This document shows, piece by piece, positions 53,880-57,683 of a DNA stretch of 64,000 bases. The stretch spans positions 62,001 through 126,000 of the forward strand of contig NZ_JAFMPY010000005.1 of assembly GCF_017353515.1 (NCBI RefSeq). Direction: 5' to 3'. The translations under genes and the position numbers were made by a program. The stretch's first letter is position 1, and each line of letters starts with the position of its first letter. This DNA is from Jiella sonneratiae. Its GTDB lineage: Bacteria > Pseudomonadota > Alphaproteobacteria > Rhizobiales > Rhizobiaceae. The notes beneath the pieces are model-generated. The model did not search any database. It saw only the letters and a program-made list of their open reading frames with translations, and was not told the origin of the DNA.

Positions 53880-55151
53880 ATGGCCAGTGGTGAAGACAGG
53901 CTGGCGGAGATCGTGCGCCATGTGTTCGCCGCCTTCGAGCCGAAGATCGCCGTCAGGCTGTGGAACGGCGAATGGCTCGGACCGGCGGGCGGGCCGGTGC
54001 TCGTACTCAACGACCCGGCCGCCATCGCGCGCCTCGTCACCAGCCCGAACATCGCGACGGCCGTCGGCCTGTGGATGGCCCGGGCGATCGACGTCGAGCA
54101 CGGCACGATCTTCGATCTCGCCGCGGCGCGGCCGGACATCCGCACCAAGGCGGCGATGAAGCGCATCGACAAGCTGAAGATCGCCGGCGCCCTGCCCGCG
54201 CTCTACGCCCTGTCGCGCCGCTCCAGGGCGAGCGGCCCGGCGGCGGGCGAGGACGCCTCGGCCAGCGGCTCGTCGAAGGCCGCGATCCAGTTCCACTACG
54301 ACGTCTCGAACGACTTCTACCGGCTCTTCCTCGACAGCCGGATGCTCTATTCCTGCGGCTATTTCGACGGCTGGCACGACGACATCGACAAGGCGCAGGC
54401 GGACAAGCTGGACATGATCTGCCGCAAGCTCCGCCTGAAGGCCGGCGAGCGCTTTCTCGACATCGGCTGCGGCTGGGGCGCGCTGTTGATCCACGCGGCG
54501 GAACATTACGGCGTCAGCGGCCACGGCGTCACGCTCAGCCAGGCCCAGTACGATCTCGCCCGCGAGCGGATCGCCGAGAAAGGGCTCGCCGATCGCGTCA
54601 CCGTCGAGTTGAAGCCCTTCGAGGAGCTTTCCGGCCAGTTCGACAAGGTGGCCTCGATCGGCATGTTCGAACATGTCGGCTGGGAAAAGCACGACGCCTA
54701 TTTCACGGCGGTCCGCAAGCTGCTCAGGCCGAACGGCCTCTATCTCCACCACGCCATCACCCGGCCGGCCAAGGAGACCGACGCGAAGTTTCGCAAAGGC
54801 ACGAAGGAATATGCGGCGATCATCCGCTACATCTTTCCCGGGGCCGAGCTCGACCATGTCGGCCATTCGGCGCAGTTTCTGGAAAAGCACCGCTTCGAGG
54901 TGCACGACGTCGAGAACTGGCGCGAACACTATGCCCGCACCTGCCGGCTCTGGCACGACCGGCTCCTCGCCCGCATGGACGAGGCGGCGGCGATCGCCGG
55001 CGAGGAGCGCGCCCGGCTGTGGCTGCTCTATCTCGCCGGCGTGTCCCTCGGTTTCGAGCGCGGCGGCCTTCTGATCTACCAGACGCTCGCCTCGAAGCGC
55101 TCCAAGGGCCCGAGCGGCCTGCCGCCGACGCGCCGCGATCTCTATTCCTGA
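53880..55151 (+). CDS. cfa: cyclopropane-fatty-acyl-phospholipid synthase family methyltransferase
   Basis: A 423-aa SAM-dependent enzyme that converts cis-unsaturated acyl chains of membrane phospholipids into cyclopropane rings. Motifs are IQFHYDVSNDFYRLFLDSRM, SCGYFDGWHDDIDKAQADKL, the SAM-binding FLDIGCGWGALLIHAAEHYG and YLHHAITRPAKETD. The start MASGEDRLAEIVRHVFAAFE at 53880 is preceded by GGAG with 8-nt spacing. An alternative start at 53850 would place the parS site within the gene. It is a single gene. Confidence 0.94.
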   Translation: MASGEDRLAEIVRHVFAAFEPKIAVRLWNGEWLGPAGGPVLVLNDPAAIARLVTSPNIATAVGLWMARAIDVEHGTIFDLAAARPDIRTKAAMKRIDKLKIAGALPALYALSRRSRASGPAAGEDASASGSSKAAIQFHYDVSNDFYRLFLDSRMLYSCGYFDGWHDDIDKAQADKLDMICRKLRLKAGERFLDIGCGWGALLIHAAEHYGVSGHGVTLSQAQYDLARERIAEKGLADRVTVELKPFEELSGQFDKVASIGMFEHVGWEKHDAYFTAVRKLLRPNGLYLHHAITRPAKETDAKFRKGTKEYAAIIRYIFPGAELDHVGHSAQFLEKHRFEVHDVENWREHYARTCRLWHDRLLARMDEAAAIAGEERARLWLLYLAGVSLGFERGGLLIYQTLASKRSKGPSGLPPTRRDLYS

Positions 55152-55329
55152 GGCGGCCGGCCCGGCGGGACGGATGGCGTGCGCGCGGCGCGGCGGGCGG
55201 CGGGCTTACGTCGCCGCAAGTGCCGACGCGGGACGGCGCGATGCCCCCGCGATGCACCACAATGTCGGGGCCCATGGCGGCGCGACGGCGGGAAGGCTAT
55301 GAACGAAACGCCCCCGGGAGCCCTCCACC

Positions 55330-56163
55330 ATGCCTTTCAGCCCCTCTGTCGCTTCCTTCCTGTGCCAGGCCTGCGGAACCGAGTTTCCGCCCGCCGCCTC
55401 GCCGCCTCCGGCCTGTCCGGTCTGCGAAGACGAGCGCCAGTTCGTGCCGCCGGGCGGCCAACGCTGGACGAGCTTCGCCGCCCTTTCCGCCGGCCATCGG
55501 ACCGTCGTCGCCTATGACGGCGCGCTTCTCGGCTTCGGCATGACGCCGCATTTCGCGATCGGCCAGCGTGCCCTGCTGCTGCGCACGCCGGCGGGCAACG
55601 TCCTGTGGGACATGATCCCGCTGATCGACCGGGCGACGGTCGATCTCGTCGAAGGTCTCGGCGGCCTCGCCGCGATCGCCATCTCGCATCCGCACTATTA
55701 TTCGACCATGGCGCGATGGGCGGAGGCCTTCGGCGTGAAGGTGCATCTTCATGCGAGCGACGAGGCGTGGGTGATGCGGCCGGGCGGGCATGTGAAGGCC
55801 TGGGACGGCGAGCGGCTGGAGCTTCTGCCCGGCGTCACGCTGCTGCGCTGCGGCGGGCATTTCGCCGGCGGCGCGGTGCTGCATGCGGCGGAGAGCCTCG
55901 TGCCGGGCGGCGCGATCCTTGCCGGCGACATCCTGCAGGTGACGCCCGGCTGCGACGGCGTCGGCTTCATGCGCAGCTATCCGAACTTCATCCCGCTCGG
56001 GGCCTCCGCGGTGCGCCGGATCGCCGCGGCGCTCGACGGCTTCACCTTCGAGGCGATCTACGGTGCCTTCTGGGGCCGCGTCGTCGAGCGCGGCGGGCCC
56101 GCGGTTCTCGAGCGGTCGGTGGCGCGGCATGTCGGATGGCTCGAGCGGACGGCCGACATCTGA
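55330..56163 (+). CDS. MBL-fold hydrolase with N-terminal zinc ribbon
   Basis: A 277-aa protein. An N-terminal four-cysteine zinc ribbon (Cys12, Cys15, Cys29, Cys32 in CQACG and CPVCED) is followed by a metallo-beta-lactamase fold. The active-site loop is SHPHYYSTMARW, an H-P-H-Y-Y variant in which the aspartate and last histidine of HxHxDH are not conserved. The metal-ligand region LPGGAILAGDILQVTPGC is present. Related proteins have been annotated as hydrolases without known substrate. It may have lost one metal site. Confidence 0.85.
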   Translation: MPFSPSVASFLCQACGTEFPPAASPPPACPVCEDERQFVPPGGQRWTSFAALSAGHRTVVAYDGALLGFGMTPHFAIGQRALLLRTPAGNVLWDMIPLIDRATVDLVEGLGGLAAIAISHPHYYSTMARWAEAFGVKVHLHASDEAWVMRPGGHVKAWDGERLELLPGVTLLRCGGHFAGGAVLHAAESLVPGGAILAGDILQVTPGCDGVGFMRSYPNFIPLGASAVRRIAAALDGFTFEAIYGAFWGRVVERGGPAVLERSVARHVGWLERTADI

Positions 56164-56207
56164 GCGCGGCCCGGCGCCGGCCCCTGCCCTTGCCCCGGAC
56201 AATCAAA

Positions 56208-56236
56208 AGGCCGCTTTCCCTTGCAGGAAAGCGGCC
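56208..56236 (-). terminator. rho-independent terminator of the 25-aa ORF transcript
   Basis: On the minus strand GGCCGCTTTCC, loop TGCAAG, GGAAAGCGGCC (11 perfect pairs) followed by TTTTGATT. It lies 60 bp after the stop of the small ORF, on that strand. Confidence 0.88.
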
Positions 56237-56295
56237 CCGTGATAGGCGTCAGCCGGCGGTCCTCAGCGACCGCTTGCAGGCGTCATCTGAAATTC

Positions 56296-56373
56296 TCAGG
56301 CGAAGCGAAGAGGCTGCTCCGTCGAACCACCGAGAATCATGGACCCAGCCGGCTTCAGACAATCACTCGACAT
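56296..56373 (-). CDS. 25-aa small ORF with exceptionally strong Shine-Dalgarno
   Basis: A 25-codon ORF beginning MSSDCLKPAGSMILGGSTEQ and ending PLRFA. The region just before the ATG (56375-56389 read on the other strand) is the complement of the last 15 bases of bacterial 16S rRNA, with GGAGG 7 nt before the ATG. Together with a promoter (56411-56439) and a terminator (56208-56236) it forms a compact unit of about 200 nt. No signal peptide or membrane helix is present. The peptide has one cysteine and a central SMILGGST stretch. The family is not recognised. It could be a small protein, a leader peptide or a dual-function small RNA. Confidence 0.75.
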   Translation of the reverse strand: MSSDCLKPAGSMILGGSTEQPLRFA

Positions 56374-56374
56374 C

Positions 56375-56389
56375 GGATCACCTCCTTTC
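56375..56389 (-). promoter_or_regulatory. extended Shine-Dalgarno
   Basis: The minus strand reads GAAAGGAGGTGATCC, fully complementary to the 3' end of 16S rRNA over 15 nt. Ordinary genes in this window show 4-6 nt matches. Confidence 0.85.
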
Positions 56390-56410
56390 GCTTCGTTGAA
56401 CACGAGAGAG

Positions 56411-56439
56411 AGTATGGGGCCCGGATTCGGGCAGCGCAA
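56411..56439 (-). promoter_or_regulatory. predicted promoter of the small ORF
   Basis: TTGCGC (56434-56439) and CATACT (56411-56416) on the minus strand, spaced 17 bp, put the transcription start about 30 nt before the ATG. Confidence 0.6.
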
Positions 56440-56669
56440 GTGGCTGCCGCAATTTTCGTCAGCTTCGGGCAATGTTCCGCCCACGCCTAGGGCCCCGCGA
56501 CAACGGCCCGAACCTTCGGCAGGTCTTTCCGACGCGGTTTCAGGCGGTCGCCCGGCATCCACGGGCTCGGTGCCGCGGCGCTTTCTCGGACCGATCATAG
56601 GCGGCCGAGGTCGCCGGCGGGCCTCGGGCCCCGGCGGAGAGGCGTCCTCAAGCCGGCCTGTCGGGAGAG

Positions 56670-57683
56670 TCAGGCCGCGTCGAGGCTTTCGCCGGGAGAC
56701 AGGGTGCGGAATCGCTCCGGCGCAATCCCCCGCGCGTCGAGCGCCTCGCGAAGCCTTGCCGGCGGCTCGCCGAAGGGCTCGTCGGTGAGCTGCACGGTGC
56801 CCCAGTGGATGGCGACGGCCTGCGCGGCGCCGAGATCGGCAAAGACTGCGGCCGCCTCTTCCGGGTCCATGTGCTGCGGCTGCATGAACCAGCGCGGCGC
56901 ATAGGCTCCGATCGGGATCAGCGCGAGGTCGGGCGCCCCGAAGCCGGCCCGCACCTTGCGGAAGATCGCGCCGTCGCCGAAGCCGCTGTCGCCGACGAAA
57001 TAGACCGTGGAGCCGCCGGCGCGCAGCACGAAGCCGCACCACAGGCGCATCCGCGTGTCGGAGATCCGGCGCCGCGACCAGTGCTGTGCCGGCACGAGAT
57101 CGACCGTGGCGCCCCCTGCTCCGTTGGACCGGCGCCGACGATCCAGCGGGAAGCTGTCGCCCCAGTCGCCGGCCACGACGTCGATGCCGGGGACCGCGCG
57201 CTGCAAAAGCACGTCGTTGCCGAGGGCGGTGACCACCCGCGGACGATCCCGCTTCATAAGCCGGCTTAGCGTTGCGATGTCGCAGTGGTCGTAATGGTCG
57301 TGCGACAGCAGCACCACGTCGATCGGCGGCAGGTCGTCGAAGCGGATGCCGGGTTCGCTGACGCGCTTCGGCCCGGCGAAGCCGACCGGGCTCATGCGGG
57401 GCGAAAATACCGGATCGGTCAGGACGTTCAGCCCGGCCACCTGGATCAGCACCGTCGCATGGCCGACCATCGTCGCGCGGAGGCCGTCGACGCGGGGAGC
57501 CGGCACGGCGGGCGTCACCGGAACCGCCGCCGGCCAGCGGGCGCGCTCGCCCGAGAACTGCCATTTGAGGAGGTCGGCGAAACGCCGGTCGACCCGCCCC
57601 TGGCCGGGATTGTGGAACCTCGTCCCGTCGAAATGGTCGGAGACGGGACCGGAATAGAAGCGATTTTTCGGCATGGCGCCCAT
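56670..57683 (-). CDS. MBL-fold hydrolase (UlaG / NAPE-PLD-like)
   Basis: A 337-aa metallo-beta-lactamase superfamily enzyme. The complete motif SHDHYDHCD (HxHxDH), the LVPAQHWSRR histidine, the VYFVGDSGFGD aspartate and the C-terminal HWGT are present. It is of the kind related to L-ascorbate-6-phosphate lactonase and N-acylphosphatidylethanolamine phospholipase D. The start was placed at 57683 (MGAMPKNRFYSGPVSDHFDG); the frame runs up to 57779 and an ATG three codons further in is also possible. It is divergent from mnmE. Substrate unknown. Confidence 0.87.
   Translation of the reverse strand: MGAMPKNRFYSGPVSDHFDGTRFHNPGQGRVDRRFADLLKWQFSGERARWPAAVPVTPAVPAPRVDGLRATMVGHATVLIQVAGLNVLTDPVFSPRMSPVGFAGPKRVSEPGIRFDDLPPIDVVLLSHDHYDHCDIATLSRLMKRDRPRVVTALGNDVLLQRAVPGIDVVAGDWGDSFPLDRRRRSNGAGGATVDLVPAQHWSRRRISDTRMRLWCGFVLRAGGSTVYFVGDSGFGDGAIFRKVRAGFGAPDLALIPIGAYAPRWFMQPQHMDPEEAAAVFADLGAAQAVAIHWGTVQLTDEPFGEPPARLREALDARGIAPERFRTLSPGESLDAA

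Follow-up and report, generated by a model that had tools for sequence, protein, structure and literature searches.

What is a 25-codon open reading frame (ORF) doing behind a ribosome site that is complementary to the last 15 bases of 16S rRNA? The question is raised by a unit of about 200 nt on the minus strand of the window, a 64,000-nt stretch of the Jiella sonneratiae genome. The original prediction described a promoter, a leader, the ribosome site, the ORF and a terminator hairpin, and it named three candidate identities: a highly expressed small protein, a dual-function small RNA, and an RNA that pairs with the anti-Shine-Dalgarno sequence of the ribosome. The observation is more general than could be seen at that stage, and a related small RNA (sRNA) family is known that is, as far as we found, uncharacterised.

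The unit was confirmed on the minus strand with all of its described parts (Table 1). The two hexamers of the proposed promoter are present at the claimed spacing of 17 nt. They match the sigma-70 consensus weakly, and a sigma-70 scan of positions 55000-57500 called no promoter. Its conservation makes the block 5' of the -35 hexamer a candidate regulator site. A single G separates the Shine-Dalgarno element from the ATG, and in relatives the motif CAAC is common ~10 nt 5' of the site. The claimed ORF and terminator were both found where expected. From the TGA to the terminator there are 57 nt with a small hairpin within them, and the terminator stem has 14 pairs if G-T is allowed. The next gene (55330-56163) lies on the plus strand and is convergent to the unit.

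Table 1. Parts of the unit, in coordinates of the window
Feature	Position	Strand	Sequence and remarks
Conserved block upstream of -35	56442..56463	-	GCTGACGAAAATTGCGGCAGCC / GCTGACGAAAATTNCGGCAG; alike in 9/10 aligned genus sequences, L003 differs
-35-like hexamer	56434..56439	-	TTGCGC; CTTG kept in 10/10 genus sequences
-10-like hexamer	56411..56416	-	CATACT; identical across 10 genus sequences
Short leader	56390..56404	-	ends GTTCAACGAAGC; transcription start assumed
15-nt Shine-Dalgarno element	56375..56389	-	GAAAGGAGGTGATCC; exact complement of the 16S rRNA 3' tail of the same genome
25-codon ORF and stop (TGA)	56296..56373	-	MSSDCLKPAGSMILGGSTEQPLRFA; intact and of equal length in 10/10 genus genomes
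P1 helix, possible 5' strand	56358..56366	-	GTGATTGTC; codons 3-6; mean pair probability 0.80 in the window unit
P1 helix, possible 3' strand	56239..56250	-	GACGCCTATCAC; directly 5' of the terminator
ORF end	56300..56320	-	GGAGCAGCCTCTTCGCTTCGC; predicted to be able to pair with leader and Shine-Dalgarno element
Intrinsic terminator hairpin	56207..56238	-	G+C-rich; TTTT after it, T run to ~56203

How exact is the match to the ribosome? In the same assembly the 16S gene has CTGGATCACCTCCTTTCT at its 3' end, and therefore GAAAGGAGGTGATCC is its exact 15-nt complement, which bears out the predicted complementarity against the genome's own rRNA. This 15-mer occurs twice in the 5.15-Mb genome, at the window site and on the antisense strand of the 16S gene. 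By simple arithmetic a given 15-mer is expected ~0.01 times in 5.15 Mb, so the window site does not appear by chance. The complementarity also exceeds that of the other genes here, as had been claimed: the remaining ORF starts of the window reached at most 8 consecutive matches in a comparison that covered the 22 nt upstream of 1,668 candidate starts (ORFs of at least 80 codons), many of which are not real genes. The predicted duplex with the 16S tail amounts to -29.5 kcal/mol for the 15-mer and -32.2 kcal/mol for a 17-mer, vs -8.7 kcal/mol for GGAGG alone. Pairing thus continues past GGAGG toward the start codon over 15 contiguous bases, and in many relatives the match reaches 16-17 bases (CCA or CCAG before TG) if their 16S tails are identical. 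The element complements nearly all of what we take to be the single-stranded 3' tail of 16S rRNA. As a property of the RNA, the proposed pairing with the anti-Shine-Dalgarno sequence is supported by this exact complement.

The unit is conserved throughout the genus. A search of 41 genomes with the peptide found it in all 10 genus members, including the window's own genome, at an E-value of 2.3e-5 or better; the remaining matches had E-values above 0.2 and were chance-like. In the alignment of the ten sequences the -10 hexamer, the site, the start, the ORF length, the stop and the terminator are kept, and the peptides are 72-92% identical to that of the window. Relatives lacking both the ORF and the ribosome site would have spoken against the original prediction. 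Both were found in 10/10 genus genomes, one of them with a single change (GGGGG replaces GGAGG). Furthermore, the unit stands out as a conserved island with 80-90% identity over 261-283 bp. Flanks that are common to the window copy have 68-76% identity, save one 351-bp piece at 86%, and three genus members share no flank with the window copy in the 3-kb loci compared.

Pattern scans extended the range well beyond the genus. They yielded 264 distinct stretches, nearly all alphaproteobacterial, and most of these share one layout: RTG follows the site after 2 nt and opens a short ORF, usually of 14, 18 or 20-27 codons, with a terminator behind it. The pattern GAAAGGAGGTGATC followed by 2 nt and RTG was found in 48 of 289 genomes of the class and in 70 of 150 genomes of the order, nearly always as a single copy, vs none of the same genomes for a reversed control pattern. 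A few of its matches stand before longer ORFs. A stricter pattern, run against the genomes of 84,980 species, returned at least 119 stretches; of the 80 titles among the matches listed, 3 say only Proteobacteria, and the others name what we take to be alphaproteobacterial groups. A shorter pattern in a sample of the phylum matched 31 of 51 alphaproteobacterial genomes and 6 of 149 other genomes, and the matches include two loci (L238, L289) that are not family-like units. Three loci (L069, L186, L300) place a perfect site before ORFs of 56-59 aa whose products begin like a signal peptide and continue with AE(C/G), and these represent a different kind of gene. Loci of the Rhodobacteraceae type (L113, L125, L139, L155 and others) carry TTTGACA-ANACACAAAATCTGTGGCA, or a near version of it, in the promoter region, together with a CACA...TGTG inverted repeat. 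Across 195 loci, each cluster of shared neighbours belonged to one clade, or almost entirely to one. Some of the neighbours are on the wrong strand because they were chosen mechanically as the longest open frames.

The phylum sample also gave six matches outside the Alphaproteobacteria: a longer gene follows the site in five of them, and the sixth (L294) resembles a family unit and is called a look-alike here. A second look-alike (L307) was found in another genome of the same family, among 59 searched, and consists of TAAGGAGGTGATCAT, ATGTCG, an 18-codon ORF and a terminator. The 16S gene of that genome reads CCTCCTTACTATT, and therefore its TAAGG fits its own tail. Both look-alikes carry TAAGG, which fits the tail CCTCCTTA (the tail was read in one of the two genomes). 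It seems from these sequences that the first bases of the element follow the 16S tail of the host, with GAAAGG in alphaproteobacteria and TAAGG in the two look-alikes of the other class. The two also share TAAGGAGGTGATC, 18-codon ORFs with a common AMSEGR, and a terminator that starts with CGGAAAGCCGC. Their class is probably Gammaproteobacteria, and the exact pattern is present in 2 of 229 genomes of that class. A third match in it (L305) has TAAGGAGGTGATCCCATG, an 11-codon ORF and a terminator. The two look-alikes gave no match to the Rfam family RF01867 in E-value mode.

RF01867 is the family of the Caulobacter sRNA CC2171, and by covariance-model score the window unit is a distant relative of this RNA. 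In E-value mode the window stretch matched the model over its full length (1-159) with 34.8 bits and an E-value of ~5e-6. The curated gathering cut-off of the family is 75 bits, and a scan of the window at Rfam gathering thresholds found nothing; the unit is therefore described here as a relative of CC2171 and not filed as an Rfam member. (A mir-648 match in the window, with 15.6 bits where the cut-off is 84, was taken to be fortuitous.) The RF01867 consensus starts with CAACAAUCGAAAGGAGGUGAUCCAGUGUCUCAU, a 16S-complementary element as in the window, which is followed by GUG (GUGUC), and both the 5' element GAAAGGAGGUGAUCC and the start-like triplet of CC2171 are present in the window unit. 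The structure line of the family draws a long-range helix to the bases 5' of the terminator, for which the window unit has complementary strands, and a terminator is present in both. The middle part aligns poorly in the Rfam alignment, and the window unit differs from CC2171 in its peptide, its middle part and its P1 bases. The family is typed as an sRNA, and its listing names no ORF. According to the accessible part of the Rfam 15 report, CC2171 has gained one additional covarying pair (PMC11701678), and a Mesorhizobium huakuii RNA annotated as RF01867 (MH_s33) is given a sequenced product of 215 nt in the portion available of PMC5596092.

Among the 289 genomes of the class, 69 matched RF01867 at E<=0.01 and 9 exceeded the cut-off; some of the weakest matches cover no more than the terminator. 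Two of the 14 control genomes matched (Caulobacter vibrioides and, unexpectedly, Deinobacterium chartae), one of them above the cut-off. A gathering-level scan of 17 named loci placed 4 above the cut-off (Methylobacterium, Bosea, Roseiarcus and Falsiroseomonas). Loci of Sphingomonas, Novosphingobium, Mesorhizobium, Psychromarinibacter, Bradyrhizobium and Hyphomonadaceae scored 33.8-49.1 bits in E-value mode, and the tested loci of these six groups are missed by the 75-bit gathering score. A match to the Whalefall-1 RNA above its cut-off was seen in Inquilinus limosus (L170, 7753-7804). Landt 2008 is said to be the founding paper on Caulobacter sRNAs. In the open-licence papers searched, we found no description of 16S complementarity or of an ORF in CC2171.

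Is the ORF translated? Taken together, comparison gives good evidence for the start, moderate evidence for the stop and indirect evidence for translation. For most units the search pattern itself required both site and start, which overstates how constant these are. The genus search and the covariance-model matches support the site independently of the pattern. The latter were not chosen by their start, and ATG or GTG stands at a constant place in 30 of 30 fetched loci, of which 25 have the exact GGAGGTGATC and 5 have GGTGGTC. A search for the 16S tails of the alphaproteobacteria with the GGTGGTC variant gave no match in those assemblies. Further evidence comes from a start-free pattern, which bars C at one base to avoid the 16S antisense: in the class, R-T occupies the start place in 49 of 54 matches, where chance would give about 1 in 6. 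As for the exceptions, one (G223) has its ATG one base closer, two read CCATT and possibly start with TTG, and two that read CCAGG (G123, G238) may be rRNA.

The stop was examined clade by clade. In the Rhodobacteraceae type a stop stands at the clade's usual codon in 21 of 21 units, with all three stop codons in use, vs 3.8 non-stops expected if the columns varied independently. The Sphingomonadales have it in 35 of 38 units, with 5.2 non-stops expected and 3 seen, which by itself is little evidence because it is hardly better than independence. The counts in the window's genus (10/10) and in the Mesorhizobium type (11/11) come from sequences too uniform to tell, and the Bradyrhizobium count (12/12) does not enter because that group was picked by its last residues. 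The members of a group are related, and the stop counts are therefore not independent.

A kept reading frame does not make a kept peptide. When seven groups were summed, the variable columns fell on codon positions 1, 2 and 3 in a ratio of 81/82/81, so purifying selection at the codon level on the peptide was not seen in these groups. An earlier count on six groups agrees. The five tighter groups gave 40/38/38, and the other two are broad and nearly saturated. This test is not conclusive because RNA pairing of the codons could also fix third positions. Between clades the peptides usually share only their first two residues (M/V-S), and even this was partly demanded by the stricter search pattern. 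Pfam and NCBIfam searches with the peptide returned no match up to an E-value of 1. Apart from the reservation about paired codons, the pattern is unlike the evolution of a conserved protein.

If not the peptide, what do the codons keep? In several clades a helix that we call P1 joins codons 3-6 to the stretch directly 5' of the terminator (for example CATTGTC/GACAATG, CATGGTT/GACCATG and AGTGAGA/TCTCACG), where the RF01867 consensus also has a helix. P1 was evaluated on 242 units, the 264 stretches less 6 with an ORF above 40 aa, 6 that run off the translated stretch and 10 with no recognised terminator. Across 129 distinct 5' strands, pairing with the unit's own 3' strand averaged -8.82 kcal/mol vs -6.52 kcal/mol with permuted 3' strands (z -10.5); control windows deeper in the ORF gave z values of -2.0 to -0.1. 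More direct evidence came from an anchored column test on 141 of the 242 units (101 distinct), in which the anchor itself fixes +7 and +9. Columns +8, +10, +11 and +12 paired in 87, 83, 75 and 84 distinct units vs 71, 44, 60 and 47 expected, a level reached in 0 of 1000 shuffles at each column, and +13 paired in 60 vs 45 expected (1 of 1000 shuffles). Permutation within groups equalled the native pairing in 0, 1 and 0 of 500 trials in three large groups. Four other groups gave no significance: the Mesorhizobium type (6 distinct strands), the Sphingomonadales (3), the Rhodobacteraceae (15) and Bradyrhizobium (6). RNAalifold, run on alignments of whole clades, found no cross-clade structure because the middle part does not align between clades.

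P1 is not the only fold, and its strength varies. In the Rhodobacteraceae it is weak (15/21 and 9/21 better than cross-clade pairing). The Rhodobacteraceae and Bradyrhizobium groups instead have a predicted hairpin across the start codon, with an unpaired probability of the start codon of 0.03 and 0.00 vs 0.48 and 0.31 with shuffled downstream sequence. Among eight groups of 10 units each, a strongly masked start was predicted only in these two. All 10 members of the window's genus have GTGAT and ATCAC at the positions of the P1 strands, and neither varies. The predicted probability of the helix is 0.76-0.94 in four of them (0.80 in the window), 0.39 in one and at most 0.10 in five. In this genus the leader together with the site could also pair with the last part of the ORF, at a predicted -22.2 to -28.7 kcal/mol vs -17.0 to -19.7 kcal/mol for shuffles, significantly (p<=0.05) in 8 of the 10 members; P1 would exclude this pairing or form a knot with it. 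Fixed masking of the Shine-Dalgarno element was not upheld as a class-wide rule: taken alone, the element showed a modest enrichment, with p<=0.05 in 36 of the 189 units used (out of 195) and a mean z of -0.94, and it reached p<=0.05 in 1 of 33 Sphingomonadales units and 0 of 9 of the window's genus. In units of the VSH type (e.g. L023, L024, L026) the ORF holds TGGATCNTCGCCTCY, which resembles the 16S tail and is able to pair with the Shine-Dalgarno element. The predicted accessibility of the site fell below the shuffled-downstream level in only one of the eight groups (Rhodobacteraceae), which counts against the idea that folding restricts initiation.

What, then, is the unit? On balance we lean towards a free-standing structured RNA gene of ~200 nt, a distant relative of CC2171, with ribosome engagement as its conserved function. 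The likely partner is the ribosome, because the one long stretch of sequence that the units keep is complementary to the tail of the ribosome itself. Comparison of the sequences shows a 16S-complementary element, a set start position, an ORF length typical of each clade, covariation of P1 in several clades and a lack of codon-level constraint. From these features we infer that docking and passage of a ribosome would be the functional event. The folds, P1 in several clades and the pairing of leader and site with the ORF end in the genus, may restrict docking and would thereby restrict initiation; the very strong pairing with the tail would allow docking of a free 30S subunit, which would open the RNA. 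With the start codon 1-2 bases past the element, translation of a few codons would unfold the RNA, and the ribosome would leave at the stop codon, at the position typical of the clade. The output would lie in the conformation or stability of the RNA or in the occupancy of ribosomes, and not in the peptide. A bolder version is possible but for now speculative: the unit may represent a new class of ribosome-directed RNA in Alphaproteobacteria, in which an antisense of nearly the entire single-stranded 16S tail captures or senses free 30S subunits, and the tiny translated track serves only to release the ribosome and reset the fold.

Other readings account for parts of these data. The unit might be an ordinary base-pairing sRNA that the ribosome stabilises: a 30S subunit bound to the strong Shine-Dalgarno element would protect the 5' end against RNase, much as in the STAB-SD element of Bacillus cryIIIA, while the 3' part acts on target mRNAs. 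The 5' placement of the element, the strong terminator, the sRNA-like size and the relation to an Rfam sRNA all suit such an RNA, but a mere stabiliser has no need of the kept start spacing and clade-typical ORF length, and reading units of several clades brought out no common seed outside the ribosome site; we regard this reading as rather unlikely. An intact ORF in 10/10 genus genomes, the peptide identity within the genus (72-92%) and a perfect ribosome site that suggests strong initiation are what one would expect if the 25-residue peptide were the product and acted in the cell. Against this, third positions show no excess of variation (although RNA pairing could hide one), the peptides of different clades are little alike, and the protein families searched gave no match. 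The highly expressed small protein of the original prediction is thus disfavoured and, in our judgement, improbable. Its suggestion of a dual-function small RNA survives in part: the relation to an Rfam sRNA, the covarying structure in the wider group and the kept start speak for the RNA side, and a functional peptide is unsupported.

The order of short ORF, stems and intrinsic terminator also recalls a leader-peptide attenuator, in which the movement of the ribosome on the ORF controls termination before a downstream gene. This arrangement is very improbable here, since the next gene is convergent and no co-directional gene lies directly past the terminator; moreover, the neighbour clusters of the 195 loci hardly cross clade borders, and P1 abuts the terminator stem without overlapping it.

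Known systems resemble single aspects of the preferred reading, a ribosome-engaging RNA gene. The STAB-SD of Bacillus cry mRNAs (cryIIIA) is a strong purine Shine-Dalgarno-like element near the 5' end that is thought to bind the 30S subunit. The window unit is like it in its strong 5' Shine-Dalgarno element and unlike it in its start codon and micro-ORF; to our knowledge, no conserved start codon and micro-ORF follow a STAB-SD. In extended Shine-Dalgarno starts of Staphylococcus aureus, pairing reaches the 16S tail bases proximal to the start codon (PMC13009471, in the part accessible). As far as that part goes, these are ordinary mRNAs with two pairs beyond the canonical helix, whereas the window has 15 contiguous pairs in a ~200-nt RNA with a tiny ORF. 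The available text on rnTrpL/peTrpL of Sinorhizobium meliloti describes a small RNA with a translated 14-aa ORF that is a dual-function attenuator (PMC10117765). The likeness is that of a small RNA with a tiny ORF in an alphaproteobacterium; rnTrpL, as presented there, is leaderless and derived from the trp attenuator, whereas the window unit combines a leader with a perfect Shine-Dalgarno element and is not followed by an operon. The SisA-D sRNAs of Caulobacter use an anti-Shine-Dalgarno motif against mRNAs, according to the accessible sections of PMC12559287. They are alphaproteobacterial and, like the window RNA, involve Shine-Dalgarno pairing, but the window RNA carries the sense element instead. 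A widespread translated track without constraint on its peptide was not found in print among the open-licence papers searched.

In Caulobacter, 75.4% of protein-coding genes are without Shine-Dalgarno sites, by the figure given in the part of PMC4117421 available. If the preferred reading is true, an RNA that is filed as the sRNA of one genus would be widespread, translated and ribosome-facing in bacteria where many mRNAs lack a Shine-Dalgarno sequence. It would also offer a natural probe of the consequences of pairing almost all of the 16S tail beside a start codon, and of whether such an RNA serves cells to sense or tune their free ribosomes. It would also carry a warning, namely that conservation of a small ORF for its translation does not imply conservation of the peptide it encodes.
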